NCBI GenBank assembly: GCA_946122785.1
Contig: CAMGYJ010000006.1
Location: 41,436,066-41,500,065 of the forward strand
DNA from: Linum tenue
Lineage: Eukaryota; Streptophyta; Magnoliopsida; Malpighiales; Linaceae
Direction of reading: 5' to 3'
Length of the DNA stretch: 64,000 nt
Shown piece by piece: positions 1,621 to 62,726 of this stretch. The notes under the pieces are model-generated. The model was not told the DNA's origin, did no database searches, and worked only from the letters and a program-made list of their open reading frames with translations. Within the stretch, counting starts at the first letter, position 1; each line of letters begins with the position of its first letter. The position numbers were made by a program, and so were the translations under genes.

Positions 1621-2962
1621 TGATAGACCGATAATTACACATGTTTTCACCCCTATTCTGAAGCCGTTTGTGATGTGGAATCTCGTGTTTTAAGCCGATT
1701 TCACGCTAGGTTGTGTGTTTATGTCATATTTCAGGACCCGACGTTGGAATTGAGGCGGAGAAACGAGTTCTGGGTCGAAAGGAGCGAAGTTGGGACGAAG
1801 GAGGCTGATGGATGAAAATACCCGGCCATGACTAAGAATACCCGGCCGGGTATTATTCCTTTGGGCGCCCCGCGAGAAACAAAAGGGCGCCCGGGCAAAT
1901 GGCTTAAATCCCCGGTCGGGGATTATGGAAAGAGACCGGGGATTTTCCCTGAGGCCGAAACGGTGCGTTCAATTTGTACCCGGTCGAGACCCAAAATACC
2001 CGACCGGGTATTTCGACCGGGTATTGCGACCTGGCAGCTGATAAAAGGAAAAGAAGGCCAACTTTCAAGGGTTCCGAATTTTTGAGAGAGAAAGCGATTC
2101 CTAGAGAGAGAAAGCGACGAACCAGAGTTCCCAAGTGCCATTGCTTGGTCTTCATCACCATTGGAGCCCGGTGTGAGCTTGGAGAAGTGCCGATTAAACG
2201 TCCAGGAGCAGAAATCCATCTTCACAGTATGATTTCCGCGTCTGAATCCGCTTTTGCTTCTTTCTCTATGGAGTAGTTCCCCCATTCATCTGGGTATGGG
2301 GAACCTTAGATTTGTATGCTAGGTCTGATTGTATGAACCCAAGTACAGAGTTTGTGAATTGATTATATTTGATTGAGGTTTGAATGATTGAATGACTTGA
2401 ATCCTGATCAAATTCCTATTGTTTCTGCTTTGACCTAGAATGAGAATATCTGCCTAGGTTGATAGAGTATCCTTAATCGAAGGTGGTGAATTGGTAACTT
2501 TAGTCGAGGAGCCAACTCGCTATTCTGTACCGAATTCAATTCGGTAGTGGAGGTTTGGTTCGTTAGGGCCTCAATCTGTTTACTCCGGTGGAGGTTAGTC
2601 GCCCGCTAGAGACTCAGATTGAGAGGGTCTGGAGACCTTTAGTCGAGACTTTAGACTATTTAAGAACCTTCCGCAGTATAACTTTCATAAAAACTAAACT
2701 TGGTAAATTGCAATCCGACTTAACTGCAGTCTAGGGGGAACCATATCCGGGTGACCTCTCTTGACTTGAACAACCGTTTAACTTGCTTTGTGTTTTTGTT
2801 TGCTTGAATCTGCACTAAAAGTTCACTGCTAGATAACGAGAATTCACCGAGTAGTCATCACATCTAGGACCTGGGTTGACAATAAAACCCAAACCCGCTA
2901 TACTACGCTTTAGGAAGTGGTTACACTTGGCCATTTTCTAGAGTGACAGTAGGAGTGAGTCA
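1621..2962 (+). repeat. Element A 5' LTR
   Basis: It begins TGATAGACCGATAATTACAC and ends GAGTCA. U3 carries the perfect 18-bp palindrome AATACCCGGCCGGGTATT (1837-1854), the near-palindromes AATCCC-CGGTCG-GGGATT (1907-1924) and AATACC-CGACCG-GGTATT (1995-2012), then an A/T-rich ATAAAAGG (2041-2048) as possible TATA. The leader has ATGGAGTAG at 2268-2276 and the inverted repeat TACCGAATTCAATTCGGTA at 2528-2546. Confidence 0.92.
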
Positions 2963-2967
2963 AGTTT

Positions 2968-2985
2968 TGGCGCCATTGCCGGGGA
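2968..2985 (+). other. Element A primer-binding site (tRNA-Asp)
   Basis: TGGCGCCATTGCCGGGGA has one mismatch to the complement of the tRNA-Asp 3' end and lies 5 bases after the LTR. Confidence 0.88.
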
Positions 2986-3109
2986 CGGCTAGGCTGTTGA
3001 AGAAAAGTGATTTCTGTTACTTTAGCATTTTCATTTTCGCATTGAGTGTTTGTTCTTTCCCACTTGTGCCTTCACGGGTTTGCATTGCTTGATTGTGTGC
3101 AGATAGTGC

Positions 3110-4963
3110 ATGACCCGTAGCCAGTCGGGAGGTTTAATGCCGTTGGATCCAGAGATTGAACGCACCTGCAACCAACTTCGGAGACAACAGCGAGCTAGAC
3201 TGGCTACGGTGGAGCGCAGAGACGGCCAATTGAGCAGCGAATCCGAGGACGAGTACGAGATGGAAGGCGATCAAAACCCACCTCCGGTGAACCAGATCCT
3301 GGGGAACGACCCCAATCCCCAGGGAGCTGGGGTCCATCATCATCCACCACCATCGGGTCCCACCTTGGAGTACTACTATACTCCACGGATTGCTGACATC
3401 CGCTCGGTCATCCTCTATCCACCCATTCCTGCAAACAACTTCGAGATCAAGCCATGCTGGATTCAACTCATTACATCCTCTATCCAGTTCCATGGCTTGA
3501 AGGATGAGGAAGCCCGGGTACATCTTTCCCATTTTCTGCAGCTGACGAATAGGTTCAAGCTGAACGGTGTCCCGGATGACGCAATCCGCCTTCACCTCTT
3601 CCCCCATTCCCTGGCGGGGAATGCTAAGAGGTGGTTGGAGACCCAGCCCCCATTGTCCATCACTTCTTGGGACGATCTGGCTGACAAGTTCGTGCATAGG
3701 TACTATCCGGCATCGAAGACCACAGAGATTCAGCGGGAGATCACTCACTTCCGCCAAGAGCCAGATGAGTCCCTTTGTGATGCATGGGAGCGGTACATGG
3801 GATACTTCTGGCAGTGTCCCCATCATGGCTTCAGCGATGCATTCACAGTGGGGAACTTCTACAGCGCCCTCACTCCAGACAGCCAGAGGGTGATTGAGTC
3901 TCTATGCCCAGGAGGGGATATTCTTACTAAGACTCCACCCGAGCTGAACCAGATGATTAGTACCCTGGCTGCCCGAGATCATTCTTGGGGACAGAACAAC
4001 AGAGGCAGGAATTCCCGGGACCGGGGTGTGCATGCTATGGAGGCCAGGTCCGGGTTAGAGCAGCAGGTGGTTGAGTTGGTGCAGACGTTGAAGCAGCCCA
4101 ACAGTCTCCTTCCGGGCCGAGGTGTAGCTACGCCTCCAGTAGCTCAGTGTCAGTGGTGTGAGAGCCTGAATCACCTGGTGGAGGATTGTCAGTCTATGAG
4201 GGAATCTTCTACTCCCCAAGAGCAGGTGGACTTCATCGCCAATGCTCGGCGCCTGGACCCGTACAGAAACACCTACAACGAAGGATGGCGCCAGCATCCC
4301 AACTTTGCCTGGAGCAGCAACACCAACAAACCACCTGGTTTCCCAGCATCAGCAGGTGGTTTTTAGCAGAGGCAGCCCTTCCAGGGTAGGCAGGGGCCAC
4401 CACCACAGCAGCAGCCCTACCAGCCTAGGCAAGGGCAGCCATTCATGCAGCCCCAGTGTCAGTATGCCGAGCCAGCAGCAGCGCCAACTCCCGATAATCA
4501 GATGACTGAGCTGAAGAACATTTTTGCGGCATTCATGACCATCAGCCAGGCAAATTTCACAAGGGTGGACCAGAGCATAGCCTCACTGGAGGCAGGACAG
4601 AGGAACCAGGGTGCCATTCTGCAAGATTTACAGAACCAGGTGGGTGTCATAGCTCGCCAAATTACTACCCGGGCCCCGGGGACTCTAGCTGCCACCACTG
4701 TCCCCAATCCACGTGATCCGCACGAGCAGCTGGATGCTATCTTTACCAGGAGAACCACGACCATCATCGCTGATCCTGCCCGGCCGGGCAGGAAGAACCT
4801 CTGCCTGCTTCAGCACTTTCAGCTGTTGATGCAAAAGTGCGGGTGGAGAAGGAAGCTTCTACTCCCAAGCCACAACCAGTGGTTAAGGAGCATGTGCCCC
4901 AGCTTCCCTTCCCCACTCGCCTACATAAAGATAAGCTGGAGACTGAGTTTGCCAAGTTTATGA
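3110..4963 (+). pseudogene. Element A gag, one in-frame TAG
   Basis: The start MTRSQSGGLMPLDPE (3110) matches B and D. The frame is open for 418 codons, with the capsid domain (WIQLITSSIQFHGLKDEEA to TLAARDHSWGQ) and a complete CCHC zinc knuckle CQWCESLNHLVEDC at about 4150-4191. A TAG at 4364-4366 interrupts; the frame then continues (QRQPFQGRQGPPPQQ) to a frameshift near 4790. The stop is explained by CAG to TAG. Gag proteins form the cytoplasmic particle and bind element RNA. Except for the stop this is the best-preserved gag in the window, so a shortened product could still be made. Confidence 0.88.
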
Positions 4964-5524
4964 CAATGTTGAAGCAGCTCAACATCAGCGTACCATTTGT
5001 GGAGGCACTGTCGAAGATGCCTAAGTACGCAAAGTTCATGAAAGATCTTTGCACCAACAAGAAGAAACTTGGGGATCTCTCGACAGTGCTGCTGAGCGAG
5101 GAGTGTTCTGCTGTCCTGCAGAACAAGCTGCCCGAAAAGCGCAAGGATCCAGGGAGTTTTACTATCCCTCTTACTATTGGCAGCATGCATGTAGGAAGTC
5201 CTTGGCGGACCTAGGCGCTAGCATTAATGTCATGCCATATAAACTGTTCAAAAAGCTAGACCTAGGTGAACTTAGCCCTACTAGGATAGCATTCAGCTAG
5301 CTGATCGTTCTGTTGTGCATCCTAGGGGTATCGTAGAGGATCTGCTTGTTAATGTGGGTGCATTCACATATCCTGTTGATTTTGTTATCCTAGACATAAA
5401 TGATGATGTGGATGTGCCTTTGATTCTGGGTAGACCATTTCTTGCCACCGCCAAGGCACTTATTGATGTGCATGATGGTAAACTGATTCTGCGTGCTGGG
5501 AATGAACAAGCTACCTTTCTGTGA
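4837..5524 (+). pseudogene. Element A protease region, frameshifted
   Basis: The linker (KEHVPQLPFPTRLHKDKLE) is in one frame from 4837. The catalytic block SLADLGASINVMPYKLFKK (about 5194-5250) is in a second frame, and DVPLILGRPFLATAKALIDV (from about 5412) in a third. At least two small indels (about 5190 and 5300) therefore break it. Sequence is close to the protease of B. Confidence 0.8.
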
Positions 5525-5949
5525 CTGAATTCGATCACTGTGCTATGATTGCTGTCACACCGGTGCATGCTATTTCTGACCAGATGCACGAGCCTGTCGT
5601 GTATCCTTCTGCACTTCTCATTTTGCAGGATCCCCCACTCACCCCTTCGCCGCCACTCACTCCAGCCTCACCGCCGAATAAAAAACCCAAAGAGGAGTGG
5701 CGGCCGAAGCAGCAGGTGCCTAAGCCCACTCGGAAGAAAGGTGGAGACCACTATGAGCTGGTCCCACCTCCTGCATCCCGATCACCCTGGCCATCCGTGT
5801 ACTCACTTGCCTGCATTCTGCCGGATGGCCAGGTCGAGCTAACCAATGCTGGTGGTGGCACCCGTCGGGTGCACGGTCACCACCTGAAGCTGTACCTCAA
5901 GAGTGACGTGGATCCGCTCTTGGAGGCACCTGTTCTCTCGGACCCTTAG
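5525..5949 (+). pseudogene. Element A integrase C-terminal tail joined to protease end (pol core deleted)
   Basis: The ORF at 5521-5949 begins a few codons after the protease and is proline/lysine rich (PLTPSPPLTPASPPNKKPKE). It ends GGTRRVHGHHLKLYLKSD, the VNGHRLKLYL end of Athila integrases. Everything from reverse transcriptase to the integrase core, normally over 3 kb, is missing. The join is in an open frame, so a short protein of unknown use could be made. Confidence 0.7.
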
Positions 5950-5992
5950 TTCCGCCATGGGCGTCCAGCTAAAAGACGGTAAAGAAGCGCTT

Positions 5993-6010
5993 GTGGGGAG
6001 GCAACCCCAC
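5993..6010 (+). other. Hairpin GTGGGG-AGGCAA-CCCCAC after the integrase stop (element A)
   Basis: A perfect 6-bp stem and a six-base loop lie 44 bases after the ORF stop. Element E has GTTGGG-AGGCAA-CCCAAC at 48106-48123: both arms changed together and the loop is identical. This supports an RNA structure. Confidence 0.7.
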
Positions 6011-6171
6011 CACGGTTTGCATTTTCTTTTCCCTTTTCCTGAGTTTTTTGTGTCGTGTCGAGTCAGTTGCATGTCTGTAGTGAAGTTCGGTCGTCTGTGA
6101 TGCCTCGGTTTGGTGTTTTCGTGCAAGAGAGGTCGAAATTTTGGAGAATGAGAATTTTGGGCGGAAGGGTA

Positions 6172-6490
6172 AAATACCCGGTCATGAGCCAAAATACCCG
6201 ACCGTGTATTTTTGGCTCGTGCCCGGGCCCCCTTCTGCCTTCCGGGGCGCCAAAAGGTCAAATCCCCGACCTCGGGCAAAAAATACCCGACCGGGTATTT
6301 TTGGCTCGAGACCGGGGATTTCCTGGCCTTGATACGCCGCGTTTAGGGAACCCCCGATCTCTCGCCAAAAATACCCGATCGGGGATTTTTGGCGCGAGAC
6401 CGGGGATCCTCGCTCCTATAAAACGCGGAGTTTGACGGACCCCCGGCCGTGGACTCGAAAATACCCGACCGGGTATTTTTGCTATAAATA
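6172..6490 (+). promoter_or_regulatory. Element A internal promoter for the 3' ORF: CGRYCG palindromes and two TATA boxes
   Basis: Palindromes AATACC-CGACCG-GGTATT occur at 6282-6299 and 6460-6477, with partial copies at 6172-6220 and 6368-6386. They are identical in type to the LTR U3 of A. TATA boxes are TATAAAA at 6417-6423 and TATAAATA at 6483-6490. A CT-rich leader follows. Activity is inferred. Confidence 0.65.
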
Positions 6491-6764
6491 GCAAACCCCC
6501 GGTCAGTTTCTCTCTCTACCCTCATTTTTCCAAAATTTCCCCTCTCTCTACTCTCAAAACCTCTCCCCTCTCTCCTCTTTGGCCGCCGCCGCCCCTCCGC
6601 CGCCGCCGGCCGCTCCTCCGCCGCTGCCGCGCCGCCGTCGCCGGTCATTTTCCGCCGACTCGCCGGCCATTTTCCGGCGAGCCTCCCGGGCAATTTTTTT
6701 CGCTCCCCCTCGCGTCCCTCACCCTTTCTTCGCGTCCTAGCTACAGTTCTCCTTGTGTTTCCAG

Positions 6765-7059
6765 GTGTGTTTCTTGTTCATTGCTCGTTTCATGGAAAAC
6801 CGAACTGTAGATTATAGGATCGAGAACTGTGTTTGCCTGCCTGATTTAGAGTAGGGTGAGGGATGACTTGAGCTACCCGTGTACTTATTGTGGTTGGTTC
6901 TGTGGTCTTGCCTTGAGTCCGGTTGAGTTGATTTCGATTCAACCGGCTGTGCTTAACTGTTAGCCTAGGTGAGCCTTGAGTGTGGGGGAAGTGATGAACC
7001 CATACTGTTGGTCCTGACGAATTTTTCTTGGCTCCACTTTTGGTTTGTTGATTGTGCAG
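6765..7059 (+). other. Possible intron in the leader of the element A 3' ORF
   Basis: TTTCCAG/GTGTGT at the left and TTGTTGATTGTGCAG/G at the right look like good plant splice sites. The ORF ATG follows 5 bases later (7064). Same position as in B. Confidence 0.4.
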
Positions 7060-7063
7060 GACC

Positions 7064-8458
7064 ATGTCCTTCGATCATCCGTTTGTGCAGGGCTTGCGCC
7101 TGCACCGGGAGTACGCGGACCAGTTCCACAAGGTGATTCGAGGGAAATTGGAGCGCCACCACCATCTCGAGTGGGCCGTGTTCGAGCAGCTCCACTGCCT
7201 GCAGGAGCTCAGCGCCGCCATCAGTCACCGCGATTGGCGGACGCTGCTCACCATAGACGAGCCCACCTACACGGAGCTGGTGTGGGAGTTCTACACCACA
7301 TTTCAGTATGACCACAAGGAGCCCCGGGACGCCAATGCGGTGACATTTAGGATGGGTGGCCATCCCCGGGAGCTGACCATTGACGGGTTGGCCTACGCAT
7401 TGGGGATCGAGTACCACCTGTTCGATGGCCACACGGTCGAGATCCCGAACCCGACCGACTGGAACCAGGATCATTTCTACAGACGTGTAGTCCGGCACGC
7501 CTATCGGGATGACGTCTTCGAGGCTGGCCAAACCTACGTCAGCACCCTCAGGCCGGAGTGGCACATTCTGAACCTGCTGATCACCCGCTCCATCGTCCCC
7601 AACGCCACCGGCTCGCATAAGATTCCGAAGCGGGTGTTGTACGCCATGTCCTCGATGCCACGGGAATCCCACCCACCTCTTCTGTGGTCCCTTAATCACC
7701 CGGCTAGCTCGCCATTTCGGCATCAGCTTCGAGGGGCTTCAGGATGCTTCTGCACAGGGCGGCTCCGCACCCCTCAGTCGGGACTTGCTCCACAGCGCAC
7801 GCCTCCTGGCCACTGATGACATCCGTACATGGGTGGACGGGCTTTCTATGCCCCCTGAGAGGTTGTGGATCTTGATGAGGACGAGGAGGACGATGACTAC
7901 TCAGGCGAGGAGGTGGATGAGGATGCAGATGATGATGACGGCGCCATGGATGCCGATGAGCCAGAGCCCTCGCTCTCCCCACCTGGGGACCTTCGGCCTC
8001 GATGGAGACCGGTGAGAGGTGAGTCCTCCTCTGGTCCTTCTGGTCCGTCGATGGCTTCCGGCCCATCGATGGACTTCTTCACGGAGCAGTTCCAGCAGAT
8101 GGGGCTCCAGTTCCAGCAGCTCGGTCTTCAGAACCAGCAGCTCATGGACCATCAGGTCTAGTTTTACCAGCAGTATTCGGCCCACCAGGCCGAGTACCTA
8201 TCCAGGATGGCGGGAGTTGACGAGCGCCTTGGCCGCCTGGAGACCCACATGGGAGTCACTAGTGCTCTCATCGAGCGGGAGAGAGATCGTGGCCGCCGCC
8301 TGATGGAGTACTCGGAGCACCTGCTCCAGGCTTGTCATCCTCCAGAGGAGCACCACTGGACCACCCGGCGGGATCATTCGTTACCACAGCAGCCACCGGA
8401 GGATGGCGACTACGACCTCATGAACCAGATCGACTTCTCCGGTCTTGGCGGGCCCTAG
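7064..8458 (+). pseudogene. Element A 3' ORF (Athila ORF1-like, env position), two frameshifts
   Basis: It starts MSFDHPFVQGLRLHREY at 7064. The N-terminal globular part contains TIDEPTYTELVWEFYTTF, VTFRMGGHPRELTIDGLAYA and ILNLLITRSIVPN, matching the 3' ORF of B. The frame changes near 7685 and again near 7860. Then comes an acidic stretch (DEDEEDDDYSGEEVDEDADD) and a glutamine-rich coiled coil (FFTEQFQQMGLQFQQLGLQ). A CAG-to-TAG stop is at 8159, then DERLGRLETHMGV and an end at 8456-8458. No signal peptide or membrane span is seen. The family resembles the Pfam Athila ORF-1 family; its role is unknown. Confidence 0.72.
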
Positions 8459-9676
8459 GGGCGTGTTTTGAGTGTTTTTCTCTTTGTCAGCATGCAAACT
8501 TTTTGTCTTATGTCGGTTTTGTTTTTTTTTTCTTTTTGGATGTTGTACTATTGGGCTGACCATTGGACCTAACATATGTGTTTGAGCTCTTTGGTTTTCC
8601 TTAGCTGTGCTTGTGTTCCCGACTGGTCCTCTCTCCAGTCCGTTCCATCCTGACTGGTCCATTTCCAGTCTCCTGCAGTCTGTGCACACCGTTAACATCG
8701 TTCCGCTTTCCTTCCCTCTTCTCCATTGAGGGCAATGTCGATCTTAAGTGTGGGGGGATGTTTATCTTTTGACTGCATTAGATCTGTTTGTGTGCTTGGA
8801 GCCTAGTCCATTGTCCAAATTTTTAAATTTGAGGGCTCCAAGTACGTGTTCCTTGCAATTGCCTGCTCAGTATGCTTTGAATTGACAGTCTCTGTAGTGA
8901 TTTGCAACCTAGGGAGGTAGTGTAGCACTATGGAGGATGTTGATGCATTTAAGAAGTCTCATTTCTTCTTCATATTGTGTTGGTTGATTGAGTGAATTAG
9001 TGATCTTAGGACCCTTGAATTGTGTGGTGTTGTGGACTCTCTGCCTGTCATGGACTCGTGTATCATGTTTTGAAAATAACAGGTGCTCAAAAATGTGCTT
9101 TTAATTAACGTCTCCCGTGCGAATAGGGCGAAAGTGTGTAAGGGGAGACGGGAATCCGTTCCCAATTTCCACCTACTACCTCCAGCCCCCTTACATGTCT
9201 TTCCCCCGCACGAGGCTCGAGACACCCGCTCCTGGCATGGCCGGTAAGAGTCGGGCTCCCGCAAAACCTTTGCTACGTGGGAGCCCCCGTTTTCTGCAGA
9301 AACAGGTTGGAACCCTTGAAAAAAGAAAAAAAAACAGAAAAACAGAAAAACAAGCAAAAAGAAGAAAGAAAAGGGGTTCCAACCATCTTCAAGAAGAAAA
9401 TCGAGCACCTTGAAAAATGTGAGTCCATGATCTTTTGTTTTTGAGAGTCTCTTCATCCACGATTCATTTGTCCTCTGTTCACTATTTTCCATGATGCCGA
9501 CTCGAGACTAGTGCTCTCGCCGAAGAAGCTATGAGATGACTTGTGCGTCGGTTGACCTCGTAAGTTGCTAAATGATCTAGGAAGTCCTCTACCTACGATC
9601 GAGGTTGTTTGTTGCTATAGAGGTCTGGAGAGTTGCATTGGTTTGAGTTAGGTTTGCTTGGGGACAAGCAAATGGT
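8459..9676 (+). other. Element A structured 3' non-coding region
   Basis: No gene is seen. Landmarks: CCATTGAGGGCAATG and CTTAAGTGTGGGGGG (8743-8757), the CTTGGAGCC/GGCTCCAAG hairpin (8795-8842), an 11-bp perfect stem GGTTGGAACCC/GGGTTCCAACC around a 58-base A/G-rich loop (9305-9384), and TTTGCTTG-GGGA-CAAGCAAA (9653-9672). Confidence 0.72.
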
Positions 9677-9692
9677 TAAGTGTGGGGGAGTT
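9677..9692 (+). other. Element A polypurine tract
   Basis: TTAAGTGTGGGGGAGT-type purine run immediately before the 3' LTR at 9693; it primes plus-strand synthesis. Confidence 0.8.
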
Positions 9693-11034
9693 TGAAAGAC
9701 CGATAACTACACATGTTTTCACCCCTATTCTGAAGCCGTTTGTGATGTGGAATCTCGTGTTTTAAGCCGATTTCACACTAGGTTGTGTGTTTATGTCATA
9801 TTTCAGGACCCGGCGTTGGAATCGAGGCGGAGAAACGAGTTCTGGGTCGAAAGGAGCGAAGTTGGGACGAAGGAGGCTGATGGATGAAAATACCCGGCCA
9901 TGACTAAGAATACCCGGCCGGGTATTATTCCTTTGGGCGCCCCGCGAGAAACAGAAGGGGGCCCGGGCAAATGGCTTAAATCCCCGGTCGGGGATTATGG
10001 AAAGAGACCGGGGATTTTCCCTGAGGCCGAAACGGTGCGTTCCATTTATACCCGGTCGAGACCCAAAATACCCGACCGGGTATTTCGACCGGGTATCGCG
10101 ACCTGGCAGCTGATAAAAGGAAAAGAAGGCCCATTTTCAAGGGTTCCGACTTTTTGAGAGAGAAAGCGATTCCTAGAGAGAGAAAGCGACGAACCAGAGT
10201 TCCCAAGTGCCATTGCTTGGTCTTCATCACCATTGGAGCCCGGTGTGAGCTTGGAGAAGTGCCGATTAAACATCCAGGAGCAGAAATCCATCTTCACAGT
10301 ATGATTTCCGCGTCTGAATCCGCTTTTGCTTCTTTCTCTATGGAGTAGTTCCCCCATTCATCTGGGTTTGGGGAACCCTAGATTTGTATGCTAGGTCTGA
10401 TTGTATGAACCCAAGTACAGAGTTTGTGAATTGATTATATTCAATTGAGGTTTGAATGATTGAATGACTTGAATCCTGATCAAATTCCTGTTGTTTCTGC
10501 TTTGACCTAGAATGAGAATATATGCCTAGGTTGATAGAGTATCCTTAACCGAAGGTGGTGAATTGGTAACTTTAGTCGAGGAGCCAACTCGCTATTCTGT
10601 ACCGAATTCAATTCGGTAGTGGAGGTTTGGTTCGCTAGGGCCTCAGTCTGTTTACTCCGGTGGAGGTTAGTCGCTCGCTAGAGACTCGGATTGAGAGGGT
10701 CTGGAGACCTTTAGTCGAGACTTCAGACTATTTAAGAACCTTCCCCAGTATAACTTTCATAAAAACTGAACTTGGTAAATTGCAATCCGACTTAACTGCA
10801 GTCTAGGGGGAACCATATCCGAGTGACGTCTCTTGACTTGAACAACCCTTTAACTTGCTTTGTGTTTTTGTTTGCTTGAATCTGCACTAAAAGTTCATTG
10901 CTAGATAACGAGAATTCACCGAGTAGTCATCACATCTAGGACCCGGGTTGACAATAAAACCCAAACCCGCTATACTACGCTTTAGGAAGTGGTTACACTT
11001 GGCCATTTTCTAGAGTGACAGTAGGAGTGAGTCA
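9693..11034 (+). repeat. Element A 3' LTR
   Basis: It has the same length (1342 bp) and landmarks as the 5' LTR, including ATGGAGTAG at 10340-10348. The start reads TGAAAGACC rather than TGATAGACC. It ends GAGTCA and is followed by the ACGGG duplication. Confidence 0.92.
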
Positions 11035-11039
11035 ACGGG

Positions 11040-12035
11040 AAAACCCAGAGACCTGGGCAGGCCGAGATTCCACACGGCCGTGCGGTTCTGGCCGTGTAGC
11101 GTGCATGAAGGAACATAAGTGAAACGTAGAGTTTTACACCTCCACACGGGCAGCTATGAATTCTACACAGCCGTGTGGCCTGGCTGTGTAGTCGCGGAAT
11201 TCTAGGCTTTAACCCAATTTTGGATCTTTTGAGAGGTGAATCGATTTTCAGAGCTAGAAACAGAGTCCTAGAGAGAGAAATTGCGAAGAAAACACCCTAG
11301 AGGTGATTTTGGAGCTGGGTTTCCTCAATCAAGCTTGGATTTCATCCTTGGAGTGAAGATTATCATCCCATAGCAGATTCTTCCCATCTTGATGAGTATC
11401 GATTGTAATGACGTTTGGATAGTGATACTGCTTGATTATAATCGATTGAAGTGTTTTGATTGAGTCAATTGAAGCCTGATCATCTTCTATTGATTTCTAC
11501 TGCAACCTTAGATAGATAGAATCTGATTAGGTTTTTAGAGCTTCTTCAATCGGTAGTAGTGAATCGATTAACGAGAGTTACTCGATTCACTGCTTTGTAC
11601 TGGAATCCAATTCCAGTAGTGGAGTTCTGTGTTTATTGCTTCAACATTCTATCCCAGTGAAGGCTAGTCGCCTGCCGGTTAGTCTGTCTGAGAGGGCTTG
11701 GTCAGCTTAAGAGATTCCAAGCTACTATCGGATCGTCTTCAGTTTAATCAACAGTAAATCAACCAAAGGTAATTACAACTTTGACCTAACTAAGGAGCTA
11801 GGGGGACTCATTCCCAAGTGACTGCTCCCCTGCTTAAGAACTTCGAACCATTTCCTGATTTCTTACTGCTTTAGCTAAAATCACATTCACTCAACTTACT
11901 TTGCTAGATAATAAATCATCACGGAGTAGGCAGTAGATCTAGACCCTGGGTTGATAAATAGAACTTGCCACTATTTTGCATTTCCAGACTGCGATTACAC
12001 TTGGTCGCAGTTTGGTGTTGTGTTTTAGTGTGTCA
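11040..12035 (+). repeat. Element B 5' LTR, right part
   Basis: The LTR continues after the second ACGGG of element A (11035-11039) and ends TGTCA at 12035. Compared with the 3' LTR it lacks about 115 bp at about 11399, a gap that includes the CT repeat and the ATGGAGTAG leader motif. The joint shows short shared bases (GTAT/GATAT), so this looks like a simple deletion. Confidence 0.8.
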
Positions 12036-12041
12036 AGTTTT

Positions 12042-47201: not shown

Positions 47202-48068
47202 ATGGATCCTCATATACAGGCCATTGCCCAAACTGACTTCTCTTTTCCCCGTGAAATAGAGGATACCCTTCGGAGCATAAAGAAGCACATAGAGGTCATT
47301 GAGAAAGCTTGTTTACAGTTTTCTCTAGACAACCTTTATGCTGCCATACAAGTAGAGGAGGAGGAAGAAGAAGGCTACAAGGACATTGTGGAGCACACTA
47401 AAGTTGTCACAGAGAGCTCCTGTGATGATCATGATCAGGAATGCCCTGTCGTAGCCGACCACACCTTCCCACGTCCCAAACTGAGCTTTGAAGAGGCGGG
47501 CATGAGTGAGGAGATGCAAGAAGATCTCATGAAAGAAATTGCTTGGAAACTTGCTCTCCAATCCGTGCTAGAAGAAGAAGAGCGAGAAAGGGCGCTGAAA
47601 GAAGTTGTGGAGGGTGACGAAAGTGAAGCAGAAGGAGTTCTTGATCATTTCCCAGGGGTGATACCACTTGAAGAAGAAAGGGAGGTTGAAGAAGCAATTG
47701 GCGTCCAGGCTGAGGACGGAGTTGAGGTGGAAGAGGCTTGCACCGGCCATGAGTTACATGTGATATCTCCACCAAACTTCGAGGAATTGCTTAGCAAGGA
47801 CCCATTTGCAGTGTCTCTTTGCCAGACTAAGGCCACATCGACATCGGTCCCTCTTGGTGGACGCGATGGTAGTAAATCGATGCTGTTATATCTAGTTTGG
47901 GGCAATGAGACGAGAGGAGAGAAGAAGAGGTCTCGAGGGTGGAGACTTCATCTACATCAAGCGCATGAGCTTCCATCACCTGTCATACCACATGCTCGTG
48001 ACTTGAGACTCCACCTCATTGACGAGAACCTCAACTTCAAGGAGGTTTTGGGGTGGACCGAAACTTAG
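47202..48068 (+). CDS. Element E ORF: 288-residue acidic protein of unknown function replacing gag-pol
   Basis: An open frame from MDPHIQAIAQTDFSFPREIE to the stop at 48066-48068. It holds a helical N-terminal segment (SIKKHIEVIEKACLQFSLDN), a strongly acidic middle with predicted coiled coil (SVLEEEERERALKEVVE), and a basic C-terminus (GEKKRSRGWRLHLHQAHELP). No gag, protease or polymerase motif is present. It occupies the place of gag-pol between primer site and the AGGCAA hairpin, so E is non-autonomous (LARD-like) with its own protein. I do not recognise the family. The true start may be upstream (46858) if the frameshift is young. Confidence 0.6.
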   Translation: MDPHIQAIAQTDFSFPREIEDTLRSIKKHIEVIEKACLQFSLDNLYAAIQVEEEEEEGYKDIVEHTKVVTESSCDDHDQECPVVADHTFPRPKLSFEEAGMSEEMQEDLMKEIAWKLALQSVLEEEERERALKEVVEGDESEAEGVLDHFPGVIPLEEEREVEEAIGVQAEDGVEVEEACTGHELHVISPPNFEELLSKDPFAVSLCQTKATSTSVPLGGRDGSKSMLLYLVWGNETRGEKKRSRGWRLHLHQAHELPSPVIPHARDLRLHLIDENLNFKEVLGWTET

Positions 48069-49432: not shown

Positions 49433-49447
49433 AAGTGTGGGGGGATT
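49433..49447 (+). other. Element E polypurine tract
   Basis: AAGTGTGGGGGGATT-type tract directly before LTR2 (49448). Confidence 0.8.
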
Positions 49448-52086
49448 TGATGACTCGATATTTGCACATATTTTCCCCTTTGTTTCTTGATTGTTTGAGC
49501 TTTAATTATCGCGTCTTTGGCCTATTTTATGCTAGGTTGTGTTCCTTTGTCACATTTAAGGTCCTAGCACATAAAGTGAAGCGTAGGGGCAAGTTTCAAG
49601 TCAATCGGAGATCATTTGGCAATTCGGGAGAAGAAACACGAGCATGACCTGAGGAATAATGGATTTCTACCTCATATTATGGACAAATTATCATGGAATT
49701 TTGTTATGAAAAGAAAGAGGACGAGACTACGAGCGTCTGGGTTCAAACGACAACTGATTTGGAGTCCGGACGAGGGAGAAACGAAGCTTTGAACAGGAGC
49801 GGAGGAAGAATTACGGGCAGGAGAATTATGACCGTAATTTGGCCTCTCATGCCCGTATTTTCACTGCCGAGAGGAGCTTTGGGTACGCTGAAACTTAACC
49901 AAAACGCGTGTTTTGGGCAAAATACGGGCATGGAAGAATTACGACCGTAATTCAGCCCTTAATTCGCCCAGAATCGGGTTATTGAGGCAGATTAGAGCCA
50001 AAGGAAAGGGAGAGCTGGGTTTTTGGTTCCCAAACACCCAAGGGACGAACCCTAGAGAGAGAGAGCGACTTGGGAACATTCTTGGAGCTATTTTGGAGGA
50101 TTTCTTTGCCATTGGAGCTCGGGAATCAAGCTTGGAGATGGAGATTGAAGATCTAGATCAGATTTCTGCAGTCTCTCTCTTCTCTATGGAGTAACTTCCC
50201 TTCACTTAGGTTTTGAGGAACCCTAGTTCCATGTGTTAGGATCTTTCTTGTATGAAGTTTTGGATGCTATATTGTTTGATTATAATCGATTGAGGCATGA
50301 TTTATTGAGTCAGTTGAATCTTAATCAAATTCTCTTGATTTCTGCTTTAACCTATGATAGATAGAATCTGATTAGGTTAAGAGAGCTTCCTTGATTGATA
50401 GTGGTGAATTGGTTGTGCGAGAGTCAAACAATTCACTGCTTTGTACTGGAATTCATTCCAGTAATGGAGATCTGTGTGAATCGCCTTATCAGTCTATCCC
50501 GGTGAAGGCTAGTCGCCTGCCGGGTATTCTGTCTGAGAGGGCTTCGTCAGTTTATGAGATTCCAAGCTAATTTAGGATCTTCCGCAGTTTAATCAACAGT
50601 AGATCAACCAAAGGTAATTGCAACTTGGACCTAATCGAGGAGCTAGGGGGAATCATATCTAAGTGAGCAATGCAGTCAAAAGCGCGATTCTACCTAGAAA
50701 CGGTGAAGGGGTAAAATCGTAAAGCGTAAAATCGAAGCGTAAAAGCGTAAGTTTTTAATGCATCCTGTAAAATTTCATTCCATCCCTTCGCCCCTAATTT
50801 CCCTTACTACCAATATAAAACAAAGAAAAGTCATACACATTATTGAAATAAGATAAGCTTGTTCTTATCCAACAAAATTTGAAATTTTCCATATAAGTGA
50901 AGCTTGGAGGAGAGCAATGATGAATAGAATGGAAGTCGGCCAGGAATCAGAGTAGTGACTAGTGAGTGAACAAAAAGAGAATAAATGAAAGGGTCAAGTC
51001 TCTGCTCATAAAAAAAAAAAAGAATATCATCATCAATCCATCATCAATCATCAACGTGTATTCAAAAGGGAGATTGAGTATTGATGGAAATGTCCAAATC
51101 TCTACTCAAGGATAAATGAAAACAAAAGCAGGGGATCACATATAACAATAAAACAGCTCCGGTCCATTTTAGATAATATATGCATACCAACTGGTAGCTA
51201 GCTAGCTAATTGGAGCACCGAAAATTAAAACCCCCCACAACCACTCGACATGAAAAGGACCATTCAACTTGCTAGCGAGCGCGGGAGTTGCGCTAGGATA
51301 ATGAAAATGTTCTTACATCGGCAGATGTGTGTTGGAGCGGTGAGTTTTGCAGTGGCAGAGCGTGGTGGAGAGATGTTCTACAGCTGGCTGGTGACAAAGA
51401 GACTGGCTTATGCAGTCGAGACATATTTTGCAACTGCTGTCACCAATTCCTGCAGCGACCAGTGGTGGAGTAGGCCGACAAAAAGTGAACGGGCGGGAAG
51501 AACTGGAGAAGATGAGCGCCGAGCGGCCTGGACTTCGAGGAAAGGAGGTTAGGGTTCTTGGCAAAATTGAATCCTCCTCTCATCTCTCGACAGTAGATAG
51601 ATGGCCCGAGTCCTTACATTTTTCTTTTGAGTTAAAACACCGTAAAACGGCGCCATTTTGGCTAAATTAAGCCATTTTTATGGCTTTCTCAAAAACGGAT
51701 AAAAGCGTAACAGAAACGCGATTTTATCGTTTTTTTGCGTTTTTACCGCTTTTACCACCGTTTTTATATGCTTTTATGTACAATACGACTTTAGGTAGAA
51801 ACTGAAGCGTTTTTGTGGTTTAGATAGGTAGAAACGTACGATTTTACGCTTTAAAGCGCGATTTTGACTACACTGTAAGTGAGTTCCCAACTTGTAATTA
51901 GTAGAGTAGTCAGTAGAGTAGTTTATAAATCAATCCTTAATCTAGTTTGCTAGATAATGAACTGAAGTTGAGTAATAGTAACTCTAGAGACCCGTGGATT
52001 CGATATTTATTACTTGTGCCACTATACTGCAGTCCCTTTCATTGGTTACACTTGGCCATTGTTAGGTGTTGTGTTTTAGCGTGTCA
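49448..52086 (+). repeat. Composite E/F LTR2 (E-type left half, F-type right half, hAT inside)
   Basis: 49448-50010 is almost identical to 45267-45829. From 50011 (AGAGCTGGGTT) it departs sharply from LTR1 but stays homologous at LTR-family level, with landmarks such as ATGGAGTAA (50186-50194) and the hairpin TACTGGAAT/ATTCCAGTA (50444-50463). A hAT element is inserted at 50668. It ends GTGTCA and is followed by a primer site. Without the hAT insertion and its extra target copy it is about 1423 bp. Confidence 0.88.
50668..51875. mobile_element. Non-autonomous hAT transposon in LTR2
   Basis: A perfect 8-bp duplication TAAGTGAG (50660-50667, 51876-51883) is typical of hAT. Ends are CAATGCAGTCAAAA and the complement of CAGTGTAGTCAAAA, a 14-bp inverted repeat with two differences. 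The 1208-bp interior has dense subterminal copies of CGTAAAATCG/GCGTAAAAGCG motifs at both ends. A short ORF at 51250-51552 resembles nothing I know, and no hAT transposase is present. It inserted after LTR2 formed. Confidence 0.88.
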
Positions 52087-52110: not shown

Positions 52111-53899
52111 ATGAAGACTACTACCCGCCTCCCACTGGCGATGGAGGCGATGAGCTGTGATCTGGTTTTGTTAGCCCATCGAGTTGGGGCTTGGCTTTTG
52201 TCTTTCTTTCCAGACTTAGACTCCGTATTGTGTTTGGTTTTTATTTCTTGTTCCCGTTGTGTGGATTGTTGACTTGGAACTATGATTTCTTTCACCCAAT
52301 GTGTGTGTTTTGTTGACTCTAGCTCTGTGCCCGTCGTACTGGTCCTTGTCCAGTCCTCTGCTATTGAGTGGTCCGCCATCCAGTCAACGTTCCTGACCAC
52401 TGTTTCACGGTAACATCGTTCCCCTTCCCTCGGCTCCATTGAGGACACTGTCGCATCTAAGTGTGGGGGGTTCTTTGTATTTATTGGAACGTATATATGG
52501 GTGCTTGGAGCCTAGTCCGCTGTCCGAATCTTATGATTTGAGGGCTCCAAGTACTGCTGTTTGATCATATTGGCACTGTGTTTTGATTGATGAATTGAAT
52601 GGTTTTCGGATTAATGCATGACAACTTGTTTGTGACTAGGACAACCTATGATGAGGACTGAGATGTGCAGTAGAACGATGTAGGGGTTCAGTTTTTCAAC
52701 TGTTTGCTTACCAACTGTGACTTGATTTGATCACTTGTTCTTGACAGTCGTTTATGCATCTAGTTCAGGGTATCAGAATGTGAGATAGAGCATATAGGTA
52801 GCCATGTGAGATTTGAGCCTGCTCGTTTCTTTCTTGTGCCCAAATTGACTGTCCTGATGTGTCATATCCTCAAGTCATCCCCTTTGAGTCGTGTGTTATC
52901 CTTTCTTTTTTATCTATAACGAAAAAAATCACCCTTTTTGCATCTTTTAGAAGGTTCCACAGAGTGGTATTTACATGTTCTCTGCTGTTTCTGCTAAATT
53001 TGTGATGTGAGTGTTGGAGGTAGTGCTTAAAAGTTGGGCAGGTGTTTGAAATATGTGCAGAAGTGGTGGCTCTCTTAAGAAATGAAAAGAAAATGAAAGA
53101 AAAACAAAGAAAAAAATTGAAAGCAAAAGAGAGCCACTACCAAAAAATCTGAATAATGCACAGTAAGTAGTGTTTCTTAGAAGTCTGGCTTGGAAATGCT
53201 GACATTTATACCTCCTTCGCTCTTGTGCTCTTGAGATATTGAGTATTGCAGAATAGCAGAAAGGGAATACTGGTTTCTTTGATTGTGATTGTGTGGGTTT
53301 GGAAATGTGGAACCTTGTGCTATGAATACTTCCACCACCTAAAAGGCCTTTTCCCCATGTCCAAGACCCTAGCCAGTCATTTGAACCTGTGTCTAAGACC
53401 TCGTGATTAGTTAGTGATGACAACCCATATGTGAACTCTAGCATTTAGAGGCTGCCATCATGGTGAAGAGATGCTAGGGATTGAGAGAAATAGCATGCAC
53501 ATTTTTCGCATTAAATTGTCCTGACCCCACTGGTCGAGAGTGAGTGATTCATCTTCATATTCTTTATACTCTTGTACCCTGGTGAGGACCTAGATTGCTC
53601 GGTCTCTGTTCTGATGTCTTGAGTTGGATGCATGAGTTGACTGTTTTGCGTGAGTGGTTGAGTCAAGTCTGGGTTGGTTGGTGAACAGAAGGGAGACCCT
53701 TCCGTTGCTCGATTTTGCTGCACTCGAATGTCCTTTGTAGTGGTTGTCCAGGTTGCTATTGAAGTTGTTCATGTGTTGATGTTTGAAAACCAGTACGATT
53801 CACGTGTTCTGTGCCTTTATGACTTGTCCCCAATGTTGGTTGATTGAAATATGTGAGCTTACCTTGTGTATTACTTGGTTTGCTTGGGGACAAGCAAAC
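52111..53899 (+). other. Element F interior: coding region deleted, structured 3' region kept
   Basis: After the primer site only a fragment resembling the start of the element E ORF remains (EDYYPPPTGDGGDEL then stop, about 52112-52159). The rest is the 3' region: GAGGACACTGTC with CTAAGTGTGGGGGG (52457-52470), CTTGGAGCC/GGCTCCAAG (52504-52551), a purine-rich loop bounded by the 11-bp stem GTGGCTCTCTT/AAGAGAGCCAC (53066-53137), and GTTTGCTTG-GGGA-CAAGCAAAC (53878-53899). F has no coding capacity. Confidence 0.72.
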
Positions 53900-53901
53900 A
53901 G

Positions 53902-53918
53902 TTAAGTGTGGGGGAATT
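53902..53918 (+). other. Element F polypurine tract
   Basis: TTAAGTGTGGGGGAATT-type tract directly before LTR3. Confidence 0.78.
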
Positions 53919-55306
53919 TGATAGCATTGTATTTGCACATGTTTTCAATCTGGTTTCCTGTCCATTTTGGCTCGAATTGATTGTTCCTTGGCCTATTTTA
54001 CGCTAGGTTGTGTTGTTTTGTCGTATTTCAGGTCCTAGCAAGTAAAGAGGTGCATAGGCGCAAGTTTCGGGTCATTTGGAGGTCAGATGGCGATTCACAG
54101 GAGGAATTACGGGCAGCCCTTGCCAAATTACGACCGTAATTGGTCAGGGCATGCCCGTAAAATAATTGCCGAGCCTTTTCCCCAAGATTTCTTCTCGGCA
54201 CTAAAATTACGGGCAAGCCTCCAGAGAATTACGACCGTAATTCCTAAAATACTGGCGGTAATTGTGGAATTACGGGCGTGGATCCTCTTCTTTCAGAGTA
54301 ATTGAAACGTGCGTTTTGGGGCGATTTACGGGCAGGCAGTGATTACGGCCATAATTCTTCCCGTAATTTGCCCAGAGTTGGGTTTTTCGAGGCAGATTCG
54401 AGCCAGGGAAGGGGCATTCGAGTTTCTAGAGCAAAACCAGAGTTTTAGAGAGAGAAAGAGCGAAGAACAAACCCTAGGAGCTATTTTGGAGTGGATTTCT
54501 CACCATTGAAGCCCAGATTGCGTCCCCAGGAGTGAAGATTGACATCCCAGAGCAGATTTTCCTCATCTTTATGAGTATGACTACTCTGATTTCTGTTTTC
54601 CTTTCTCTCTCTATGGAGTAGAACCTTTCTCTCACTTGGGTATGAAGAACCCTAGTTCCTTGTGTTAGGGATTTGATTGTAATGACTTGGGATGATTATA
54701 CAGTTTGATTTTAATCGAATGATGCATGTTTATTGAATTGATTGAAGTTTGATTAGCTTTTCTTGATTTCTGCTGCAACCTGAGATAGATAGAATCTGAT
54801 TAGGTTGTTAGAGCCTCTTCATTCGATAGTAGGAGATTGGCTATACGAGAGTTAGCCAGTTTACTGCTTTGTACTGGAATTCAATTCCAGTAGTGGAGTT
54901 CTGTGCTTATTGCTTCATCTTTCTATCCCGGTGAAGACTAGTCGTCTGCCGGGTAGTTAGACTGAGAGGGCTTGGTCAGCTTAAGAGATTCCAAGCTACT
55001 GTCTGATCTTCCGCAGTCTAATCAACAGTGAATCAACCCAGGGGAATTACAATTGAACCTAACTAAGGGGCTAGGGGGACTCATTCCCGAGTGACTCTTT
55101 CCTGCTTTTGAAAACCGAACCATTTCCTTCTTTCTTACTGCTTTTGCTTTAAACAACAATCAATCGAATTAGTTGGCTAGATAATAGACAATCACGGAGT
55201 AAGCAATAGATCTAGACCCCGGGTTGATAATAGAACTTGCCTGTTACTGCATTCCCGGATTGCGATTACACTTGGTCGCAGTTTGGTGTTGTGTTTTGGC
55301 GTGTCA
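53919..55306 (+). repeat. Composite E/F LTR3 (F-type left half, E-type right half)
   Basis: It starts TGATAGCATTGTATTTGCAC, unlike LTR1, with AATTACGACCGTAATT palindromes at 54126-54141 and 54227-54242. From about 54415 (CATTCGAG) it is nearly identical to LTR1 from 45830 to its end. It ends GTGTCA and is followed by the CTTTT duplication. The leader motif ATGGAGTAG is at 54613-54621. Confidence 0.88.
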
Positions 55307-60094: not shown

Positions 60095-60540
60095 TGATAA
60101 AAACATAAAGCAGAAAGGTAAACTAACACCAATTTATGTGGTATTCTCGTTCTTACCGTGGACGAGACTAATCCACGGCAAGCTCACACAACGAGCTTGC
60201 GACTCCTCTTATTAGGTTTTCGACCAATACTTGCAGATTGACAAGGACTCGACTACTATAAACATATATATACTACATGGCTAAACTACTAGGGTTAATA
60301 GCCAAAACAAATAACTTGGTCAATTACCAAGCGCTACCCAAACTACACAATTAATTGAACACGTCCCAATCTCACGGTCGTGAGATGAGGCCGTGAGATA
60401 CACTGTCTTCCTAACACCCACCATACTGGTCTCACGGGCAGAACTCACGACTGTGAGATTACATGCAGAAATCATGACCAACAACATTCCTTTCCTTCTT
60501 CTTCCATTTCATCCACTTTTTCTTTCTTCTCTAACGTGAA
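60095..60540 (-). repeat. Possible minus-strand copia-type LTR with CGGTCG palindrome
   Basis: From the primer-like site the segment begins TGATAAAAAC. On the minus strand it has a TATA-like TATATATATG near 60262-60275 and, upstream, TCTCACGGTCGTGAGA at 60370-60385 plus partial copies to about 60460. The right end and target duplication could not be fixed, and no partner LTR is in view. Confidence 0.35.
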
Positions 60541-61033
60541 GCAAAACAAGGGAGGTGAGTGTCGGGCATTTGGTTGAGAGAAGGGATCGCTGGGGTTGCT
60601 TCTGTTTTTGTTGTTGTTGTTGTTGTTGTTGTTGTTGGCTCTCCCATGTCCCTGCTTGCTTCCGCTAGCAACGCTAGTCTCCTCACGAGAAAGGAAGGAA
60701 CCCGAAAGTCGTGGTGGGCTTCTTTCTCTTTCCTTTCCTCCCTTGAAAGCTGCTTCTGTTGTTATAAAAGGAAATGGGAACGTTGGGGAGAAATTCTTCA
60801 GTGATCCTGTACCACCACGTCAGCTTGCTTATTTGGTGCTCCGGCCCAATAGCTAGCTGACACATGTACCTATCTTTTCCTATTCGTTCTCTTTCATGCG
60901 TTAAGCTGCGAGCTCGTAACATGGATGAAACTCATCTTTTCATTGCACAATCAAAATATAGAGATACGCCACAGCGAGTCCAAACAACCCGCTAATTAGC
61001 ACAAGCGAAACAGATCTAACCCTAACAACACTC
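60541..61033. other. Unique-looking DNA with (GTT)n microsatellite, no supported gene
   Basis: A run of about nine GTT units lies at about 60609-60638. Short ORFs across it are low complexity on both strands. Nothing resembles a known protein. Confidence 0.5.
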
Positions 61034-61364
61034 AAACAATCTTCAATTTCATAAAATGAGAGAAATCAGAATAAAAACGAAAGGTTTCAACTCATAAATC
61101 ACATTCGTAGATAAGGAAACCCGCAAAAAATCTCAAACCCAACTAACCGAACAAGTTTAGGCCACCGAAGGATTTTGTTTTCCTTTCACGGGACGATCAA
61201 CACACCCCGACGGAGGGCCTTTATATATATCTTCTTTTTCTGATCGCCTCTCTGTATTTATATATTATACTAATAATAAATCTCTAACCCCTATATTTGA
61301 AAAACTTTTGCTAATAAACATACTAAATCTTTTGGTTAATTAGCGTAGTCATTGATTTCTAAGG

Positions 61365-62726
61365 TGACTCGCTCCTACCGTCACCCTAGAAAATGGCCAA
61401 GTGTAACCACTTCATAAAGCGTAGTATAGCGGGTTTGGGTTTTAATGTCAACCCGGGTCCTAGATGTGATGACTACTCAGTGAATTCTTATTATTTAGCG
61501 GGAAACTTTAGTGAAGGTCCAAACTAACAAACAAGCAAAGCAAAGCAAGAAGGTTGTTTTCAAGTCGAGAGAGGTCACCCGGATATGGTTCCCCCTAGAC
61601 TGCAGTTAAGCCGGATTGTAATTTACCAAGTTCAGTTTCAATGATAGTTATACTGCGGGAGGTTCTTAAGCAGTCTGAAGTCACGACTAAAGGTCTCCAG
61701 ACCCTCTCAATCTAAGCCCCCAGCGGGTGACTAACCTCCACCGAAGTAACCAGATTGAGGCCCTAACGAACCAAACCTCCACTACCGATTAAATTCGGTA
61801 CAGAATAGTGAGTTGGCTCCTCGACTAAAGCCGGCAAATCCCTACCTTCAATCAAGGGTGCTCTATCAACCTAGGCAGATATTCTCTTTCTAGGTTAAAG
61901 CATAAACAACAGGAATTTGATCAGGATTCATGTCATTCAACAATTCAAATCTCAAATGCATATAATCAAATCTTAGAATCTGTACTTGGGTTCATACAAT
62001 CAAACCTAACATGCAATTTTAGGGTTCTCTATACCTAGATGAATGAGGAAGTTACTCCATGGAGAGAGAAGCAAGAGCAAGCTCAGATGCAGAAATCATG
62101 TTGTGAAAGATGGGTTTCTGCTCCTGGTCGTCAATCGGCACTTCTCCAAGTGTGAGCTGAGCTCCAATGGTGTTGAAGATCAATCTAGGGCACTTGGGAA
62201 CTCTGGTTCGTCGCTTTCTCTCTCTAGGAATCGCTTTCTTTCTCTAAAACTCGGAACCCTTCATTTTTAGCCTTCTTTTCCCTTAAAAAGCTGTGTGTCG
62301 CGACCCCGGTCTGAATACCCGGTCGGGTATTTTGGGTGGCGACTGGGTATAATCAAAACGCACCGTCGGGTGACAGGGGAAAATCCCCGGTCAGGTCCAA
62401 GAATCCCCGATTGGGGATTTCTGCTCACTACCCGGGCCCCCTTCTGCTTCTCAGAGACGCCCGAAGCGACAAATCCCCGGTCTGCTCCAAATAATACCCG
62501 GTCGGGTATTTTTGCCCATGATCGGGTATTTTGCTCCTCCAGCACACTTCGACCCAACTTTGCTCCTTTCGACCCAAAACTCGTTTCTTCCCCTCGATGC
62601 CAACGCTAAGTCCTGAAATATGACATAAACGCACAACCTAGCGTGAAATCGGCTTAAAACACGAGAATTAACATCTCAAACGGCTCAAGAATAGGGGTAA
62701 AAACATGTGTAATTAATGGTCTATCA
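61365..62726 (-). repeat. Solo LTR of the element A family, minus strand
   Basis: On the minus strand it runs from TGATAGACCATTAATTACAC (62726 leftward) to GCGAGTCA (61365), 1362 bp. It matches the A LTR throughout. The 5-bp duplication TAAGG flanks it (61360-61364, 62727-62731), so it is a solo LTR left by LTR-LTR recombination. It carries AATACC-CGGTCG-GGTATT at 62314-62331 and ATGGAGTAA (62052-62060, minus). Confidence 0.88.

Follow-up and report, generated by a model that had tools for sequence, protein, structure and literature searches.

Palindromes of Athila-type retrotransposons in Linum tenue as possible composite operators beside two promoters

Why should related retrotransposons in one plant genome carry palindromes that share a centre and differ in their arms? 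The question is raised by 64,000 nucleotides of Linum tenue DNA (contig CAMGYJ010000006.1, positions 41,436,066 to 41,500,065), hereafter the window, to which all counts of motifs and elements refer. The window is a nest of plant long terminal repeat (LTR) retrotransposons, whose families are lettered A, B and D to H, and an earlier note had described palindromes built on a constant CGRYCG core in every Athila-type U3 (unique 3′) region. These palindromes may be the inner dyads of composite operators at two promoters, bound by the family's own 3′ protein as a regulator, a reading whose chances are placed just short of even. That the sites serve a sequence-specific protein of some kind is very probable; the product of the element's 3′ gene is the candidate, and is as apt to be that protein as not.

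All nine palindromes listed in the note are present, the one in family G with a single arm mismatch as had been claimed. A scan blind to the motif, for perfect inverted repeats with arms of at least 7 nt and a 2-nt spacer, returned 27 in the window against a mean of 4.94 (maximum 12) in 200 dinucleotide shuffles; LTR pairs and repeated units among the 27 are not independent. The centre is CG-RY-CG in 19 of the 27 (shuffle mean 0.015, maximum 1), and every one of the 19 repeats with an inner CG has an RY centre. CGRYCG itself occurs 46 times where 15.7 are expected (maximum 27). A chance cluster in CpG-rich DNA is ruled out by these shuffles, by the spacing test and by the comparison of consensus counts with shuffles, both given below; CpG observed/expected is 0.69–1.62 in the clusters and 0.64 in the window. 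One further perfect dyad, at 4774–4793, lies inside an open reading frame (ORF) and may have arisen by chance. The presence of a palindrome in every U3 was too broad a claim, since the dyad of the B 3′ LTR has decayed to CGGCTG (29570) and one dyad of the second E LTR reads TGACCG (49829).

Nor is CGRYCG itself the constant core that the note had taken it to be, although a constant unit does exist. CGACCG and CGGTCG are not self-complementary, and the site is an inverted repeat with a 2-nt spacer. Solitary half-sites, defined as an arm with at most one mismatch, the CG kept and no second CG at dyad spacing, number 46; a purine stands at +2 in 43 of them (G in 35), C at +4 in 36, and A or T at +5 in 35. 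Judged from these letters, the repeated unit is the half-site arm-CGRNC, two copies of which overlap head to head in CGRYCG. The CGACCG and CGATCG forms do not have CGG on both strands.

The arms are AATACC or AATCCC in A, CCACA in B, AATTA in E and F, GTTCA in D and GATCA in G, with an additional type, ATCTCA, in H. All 23 occurrences of AATACCCGRYC fall within A clusters (seven of them internal), all 11 of CACACGGC within B clusters (three internal) and all 13 of AATTACGG within the U3 clusters of E and F. Shorter words leak outside their family (AATACCCG in 2 of 25 occurrences, CCACACGG in 1 of 12 and AATTACGR in 2 of 20), and the D and G words are not family-specific. In each of 12 clusters the family's own consensus has more sites than in any of 200 shuffles. 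With up to two mismatches allowed, three A clusters hold 10, 11 and 15 sites for their own consensus and four B clusters hold 3, 7, 10 and 13, against shuffle means of 0.13–1.68; in the cross-check, the B consensus finds no site in the A clusters and the A consensus a single site in the B clusters. The claim that arms differ by family is upheld for A, B and E/F, which are sharply distinct, and less so for D and G, since with two mismatches allowed their consensuses also match other clusters, that of D at 13 sites in G and that of G at 12 in F. At this tolerance the arms of D, G and partly of H and E/F overlap. Within a palindrome the two arms mostly match, as stated, but the dyad at 6376 pairs AATACC with AATCCC.

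With the half-sites masked, the A and B U3 regions are still homologous (score 33, reached by 0 of 200 shuffles), and in the module that they share all three half-sites differ in concert. The note's proposal that arms change together between families is borne out here. Such a concerted change between homologous regions fits a family-specific trans-acting regulator, and is the clearest hint of a trans-acting partner that changes.

The spacing of half-sites around the dyads follows a narrow rule. For each of 23 dyads (including those of both A LTRs, both E LTRs and the dyad in the ORF), the dyad's own arm plus CG, with at most one mismatch, was sought in the same sense 8–60 bp outside it. On the 46 flanks there are 31 matches, all at 12–22 bp and none at 23–60 bp: two at 12 bp, four at 13, one at 14, one at 15, two at 17, nine at 20, eleven at 21 and one at 22, the 20–22 bp class thus holding 21 of the 31. 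Arms taken from dissimilar dyads gave a mean of 2.35 matches overall and of 0.146 at 20–22 bp (maximum 2 in 500 trials). A less redundant test, which used family consensuses on 12 clusters with 22 dyads and omitted the A 3′ LTR and the second E LTR, yielded 27 same-sense matches within 5–60 bp (16 at 20–22 bp, seven at 12–14, three at 15–17 and one at 42); opposite-sense matches were eight in number and scattered from 21 to 56 bp. Modules consisting of a half-site, 20–22 bp, a dyad, 20–22 bp and a second half-site occur in the internal clusters of A and B, in F and in the minus-strand A-type LTR, and also in G with two mismatches, and the A and B U3 regions have mostly a single outer half-site per dyad. 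On a simple reading, 20–22 bp corresponds to two turns of the helix. Taken together, the match of arm to family, the concerted A/B change and the strict spacing lend support from the sequence to the note's suggestion of a dimeric protein that would recognise these sites specifically and prefer different arms in different families.

The LTR clusters can be placed as follows. On the plus strand, the A U3 operator cluster (1800–2040) has dyads with CG positions at 1843, 1913 and 2001, outer half-sites at 1823, 1937, 1981 and 2018, and a TATA-like GATAAAAG at 2040; its counterpart in the A 3′ LTR (9872–10112, +) has dyads at 9915, 9985 and 10073. The D cluster (36690–36790, +) has a dyad at 36735 (GTTCACGGTCGTGAAC), a half-site at 13 bp and the TATA box TATAAAAG at 36773, and the G U3 cluster (43150–43480, +) has dyads at 43345 and 43431 (imperfect), outer half-sites at 20–21 bp and the TATA box TATAAATA at 43483, with a primer-binding site at 44484. 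Copies lie upstream of the LTR TATA box in A, D and G. Arms of the AATTACG type mark the U3 clusters of the first E LTR (45610–45800, +; dyads 45648 and 45761) and of F (54080–54380, +; dyads 54131, 54232 and 54346); that of the second E LTR (49795–49990, +) has dyads at 49829 (the decayed one) and 49942. The H cluster (60340–60500, assigned to neither strand) contains ATCTCACG, dyads at 60375 and 60448 and half-sites at 13 bp. An A-type U3 cluster at 62290–62560 (−), with dyads at 62320, 62408 (decayed) and 62499, belongs to a minus-strand LTR at 61365–62726. Element A (1621–11034) is inserted in the 5′ LTR of element B, and the B cluster is accordingly split: left of the insertion (1373–1620, +) are a half-site at 1573 and a dyad at 1594 (CCACACGGCCGTGTGG), and right of it (11036–12036, +) are a cluster at 11036–11240 with dyads at 11075 and 11168 and a primer-binding site at 12042. 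The B 3′ LTR (29369–30754, +; from self-BLAST) has a decayed operator cluster at 29560–29860.

A second set of clusters lies inside elements A and B. The A internal operator cluster (6165–6500, +) has dyads at 6199, 6288, 6376 and 6466 with symmetrical outer half-sites, a period of about 88 bp (88-bp tandem units) and, at its end, the TATA box TATAAATA at 6483. Its equivalent in B (25640–25890, +) has dyads at 25690, 25761, 25831 and 25871 with outer half-sites, and the TATA box TATAAAAA at 25855 lies between the last two; 13 half-sites are found there within two mismatches, against a shuffle mean of 0.42 (maximum 3). The internal cluster is upstream of the 3′ gene in both of the elements, A and B, that have these arms and the gene. 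E and F have neither a detectable 3′ gene nor an internal cluster, and the interiors of D, G and H are missing or unknown. Between the TATA box and the ATG, a splice-donor-like block, CTACA.TTCT.CTTGTGT.TCCAGGT, is conserved in A and B: A has a donor-like CAG/GTGTGT at 6765 and an acceptor-like AG before the ATG, and B a donor-like CAG/GTTTGA at 26146.

The 3′ gene of A (7064–8455, +), A-type, has a weak match to PF20167 and a broken reading frame, and that of B (26645–27948, +), B-type, is interrupted and has relatives that match PF20167 weakly. E values are 5e-6 for the A ORF of the window and down to 2.7e-7 for B-type relatives; most relatives are assigned PF20167.4 in the precomputed list of the protein database. 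All 12 protein matches of the A 3′ ORF come from Linum trigynum, and the six best are 71–80% identical over 63–81% of the query. Other protein searches, one of which scored its best 7987 candidates, returned only Linum trigynum and one Tanacetum ORF, and scans of viral contigs returned no relatives. The Linum 3′ proteins split into A-type and B-type, 38% identical in the PF20167 region, and the type tracks the element, A-type in A and B-type in B. In the window, tblastn with the 3′-gene proteins matched only A and B, a search that a far-diverged gene, like that of the nested Ty1/copia element, would escape. In both types a stretch of 60 residues is acidic (net charge −15 and −16), and a long C-terminal helix is predicted at low confidence (residues 331–411 in the B-type model and 355–443 in the A-type model). 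A sequence search of the PDB returned one chain only, at E 0.29. Within the window, PF20167-like 3′ genes are not confined to one LTR superfamily, the copia element having such an ORF at 22266–23447 (+; E 2.2e-8) with a TATA box near 22261, just upstream. In sunflower, Athila 14 has a 3′ ORF with a partial PF20167 match, predicted to be nuclear (PMC11728184).

These parts could be joined in a single circuit. An operator would consist of half-sites made of a family-specific arm of 5–6 nt and the constant CGRNC, two of them overlapping head to head and one or two more standing in the same sense 20–22 bp (or 12–17 bp) outside the dyad; operators would be repeated beside the LTR promoter and, in A and B, also beside a second promoter for the 3′ gene. 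The product of that gene would be a nuclear, coiled-coil, sequence-specific regulator that binds the two promoters of its family and most likely activates them or counters their silencing; it would feed back on its own gene and drive the genomic transcript. Arms and arm preference would co-evolve, preventing cross-activation between families, and E and F, having no gene, would borrow the protein of the family that shares their arms. The internal clusters would be kept by selection. As for the 3′ ORF that the note had put forward as the binding protein, the same family arms do stand upstream of the gene in A and in B; these are two families only, and U3 copying may explain part of the match. 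It is distinctly unlikely, though conceivable, that the scheme extends to env-class elements of both superfamilies (Athila and Sirevirus), their 3′ gene encoding a self-regulated, family-specific DNA-binding factor rather than an envelope, which would read arm-CGRNC operators at two promoters and, through fast divergence, give each family a private transcription code.

Several observations weigh against the regulatory reading. The LTRs of B, E and F show no TATA box by the pattern used. All PF20167 matches in our own scans fall below the Pfam cut-off of 45 bits. The AlphaFold2 models, built from Linum sequences only, are unreliable (pLDDT 36 and 48), and with them Foldseek retrieved nothing from the PDB at E ≤0.001. 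No recognised DNA-binding domain is present in the 3′ proteins, whose PF20167 region is nearly neutral, and the idea that the N-terminal part diverges between the two types whereas the C-terminal part is conserved was dropped, the C-terminal part being 40% identical and the PF20167 region 38%. The 3′ ORF of the copia element has a TATA box but no such operator array, which rules out an array tied to every PF20167 gene. The coupling of protein to motif is seen in two cases, A and B, that keep both arms and 3′ gene. In B the internal array is degenerate, with one of 13 half-sites exact and 12 carrying one or two mismatches. Finally, a 40-bp block of the A U3 recurs inverted in the A internal cluster (z 10.2), and the letters of the first B internal module can be aligned one by one with those of the B U3 module, across the spacer and into the 3′ flank, so that a common origin, old or recent, is likely in B too. 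This block and this alignment, together with the 88-bp tandem units of A, are what would be expected if U3 pieces had been copied inward in each family and the match between LTR and internal arms had arisen from this without selection. The internal clusters probably did arise from U3 sequence. As a full account, however, copying without selection is judged quite unlikely. The rest of the B internal cluster lacks direct-orientation flank homology to the B U3 (scores with half-sites masked were reached by 127, 87 and 56 of 200 shuffles; in reverse orientation the comparison is borderline, with scores reached by 18, 196 and 26 of 400), and copying leaves unexplained both the concerted arm change between the homologous A and B U3 regions and a single spacing rule across families with different arms. 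Recent U3 copying as sole cause of the whole pattern was rejected on the latter two grounds. Selection may have kept the internal clusters once they had arisen, a case that the B alignment weakens and that rests on two elements.

Three further explanations keep a function for the sites. Host transcription factors would serve if Athila families had recruited different members of one host family that contacts CGRNC. The arrays of E and F, which have no 3′ gene detectable by tblastn, speak for this, as do the CGG-CCG palindromes of Sireviruses, which are found in both monocots and eudicots and gave matches to stress-factor sites in PLACE (PMC2829016). A shared core and spacing with several arms would, however, need a host family diverging in step with the elements, and among the elements with these arms internal clusters are found only where the 3′ gene is kept; this explanation is regarded as unlikely. 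Somewhat less unlikely is anti-silencing of the VANC type, in which the protein would bind its sites to remove methylation and not to activate transcription as such. The clusters do keep their CpG, and VANC motifs are likewise short, family-specific and clustered in non-coding DNA; yet the sites of VANC are scattered through tandem repeats and are nowhere termed a palindrome in the sections available (PMC5735166), and dyads with fixed spacing by a TATA box (A, D, G and both internal clusters) look like promoter operators. A very improbable alternative is that the repeats act as folded RNA or as small interfering RNA (siRNA) or chromatin signals. RNA folding gave z scores of −6.8 (6255–6325), −5.0 (6345–6415) and −5.7 (54100–54170), and LTR palindromes of maize Sireviruses are reportedly linked to siRNAs. 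On the other side, z is above −2 in 5 of 15 folded modules, a spacer complementarity score of 5 is reached in 3 of 28 dyads, all in the A internal cluster (the rate in cross-family pairs is 1.0%), CG-RY-CG is kept although its 2-nt centre could not form a hairpin loop, and the same-sense half-sites at 20–22 bp are left unexplained. RNA hairpins as the main cause of the symmetry were rejected: many modules fold well, and spacers are complementary only in the A internal cluster. The chances given to these rivals overlap: anti-silencing would act through the same protein, and copying does not preclude function.

If the sites are operators of the family's own regulator, which known systems do they resemble? 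The carriers have LTRs, gag and reverse transcriptase and so are not VANDAL (Mutator-like) DNA transposons; nor are they Ty1/copia Sireviruses, to judge by the Ty3-type gag of A, the RVT_1/RNase H pol of B and the TGGCGCC-type primer-binding sites. The repeated motifs (RMs) of Sireviruses are dyad-symmetric palindromes; 12 of 13 elements have CGG-CCG as their core, and the outer letters vary by element (Bousios et al. 2010, PMC2829016). They cluster in the LTR upstream of the TATA box, are CpG-island-like, and also lie upstream of ENV in nine ENV elements, with 77 of 79 linker copies. No common binding factor is given by these authors, who suggested an internal promoter that was not conclusively found, and who termed the RM Sirevirus-specific and absent from classic retrotransposons (PMC2829016). 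The sites in the window are like these RMs in being dyads, with LTR copies upstream of the TATA box (A, D and G) and copies upstream of the 3′ gene in A and B. They differ in belonging to Ty3/gypsy Athila-type elements and not to Ty1/copia, in their constant 2-nt RY centre and in the spacing rule of outer half-sites, and further in the TATA box and splice-like signals found for the 3′ gene and in the concerted arm change in homologous U3 regions of one genome. Sireviruses show a cis anatomy of like kind in the other superfamily, and are a closer cis-level precedent than VANC.

The parallel with VANC had been drawn in the earlier note, and holds as far as short family-specific motifs go; Sirevirus RMs are closer at the cis level, and foamy virus Tas is closer as a circuit. 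The VANC21 motif, YAGTATTAY, is not described as palindromic in the available text, and its binding and the ensuing demethylation have been demonstrated (Hosaka et al. 2017, PMC5735166). Common to both systems are an accessory protein, here a putative one, and short, fast-evolving, family-specific motifs in non-coding clusters. VANDALs are, however, DNA transposons with binding and demethylation demonstrated, and the present case is one of sequence motifs alone. In foamy viruses, an internal promoter lies upstream of the 3′ regulatory gene, Tas-responsive sites are carried by both LTR and internal promoter, and activation is established experimentally (PMC8670036). The likeness, at the level of sequence, lies in motifs and TATA boxes shared by U3 and internal region; Tas belongs to an unrelated vertebrate virus and is an experimentally established activator, whereas the plant protein is a candidate. 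Sunflower Athila 14 shares the PF20167-like 3′ ORF, for which the accessible text proposes neither cis-motifs nor a function (PMC11728184). Such sites in Athila were not found among the titles and abstract openings listed for Athila literature on palindromes, additional ORFs and DNA-binding, anti-silencing or internal promoters, a body in which few subscription papers are covered. We know of no matching operators in maize Grande, which has a 3′ accessory gene.

The assignment of the carriers follows from Pfam domains and primer-binding sites. Element A has a Ty3-type gag, and element B a pol with RVT_1 and RNase H. The TGGCGCCGTTGCC primer-binding site is present with 0–2 mismatches at 2968 (A), 12042 (B), 44484 (G), 46728 (E) and 52093 (F-side); all are of the TGGCGCC type, which is Athila-like. 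D had been counted as Athila-type, but neither D nor H has an adjoining primer-binding site with ≤4 mismatches, and both are best held as unconfirmed members. The LTRs of A, 1621–2962 (+; placed by self-BLAST and flanks, with its primer-binding site at 2968) and 9693–11034 (+; self-BLAST), are 97.5% identical to each other by self-BLAST, and the target-site duplication ACGGG flanks the element on both sides. Element A keeps gag, a protease-region match and the 3′ gene; self-comparison finds in it no similarity to the reverse transcriptase or integrase region of B, and it is probably a deleted copy that retains its 3′ gene.

Other features of the window stand beside these elements. The nested Ty1/copia element is young, its LTRs (16433–17330 and 23685–24583) being 98.2% identical. 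Downstream of its TATA-like box, this LTR contains two long inverted repeats different from those above (GATCTTTGACcGTCAAAGATC and CGATACTGATtcATCAGTATCG, at 16778–16930 and in the 3′ LTR copy). The first E LTR (45225–46722) is a mosaic, 95–99% identical to the second (49406–50720) from 45325 to about 45825 and 95–99% identical to a third LTR (53877–55306) beyond that; the switch point may be the U3/R boundary, with U3 exchanged during reverse transcription. The short E element has an acidic ORF of 299 aa (47169–48065, +) that has no Pfam match. The minus-strand A-type LTR at 61365–62726, whose dyad at 62314 had been assigned to a solo LTR, lies within a tandem duplication of about 1.88 kb (61034–62726 and 62911–64000, 94.6% identical) whose second copy runs past the end of the window, and solo status is not established. 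What looks like a host gene lies at 39562–40089 (−), an ORF in which a RALF peptide domain (PF05498, E 8e-8) is joined by a long, charged tail.

What purpose 3′ genes serve in plant LTR retrotransposons has long been asked. If the circuit proposed here is true, these genes would be regulators of transcription, and each family would be a closed circuit of protein and sites. The Sirevirus palindromes described in 2010, which had no binding factor, would be joined to a kind of candidate protein, and the separateness of related families within one genome would be explained.

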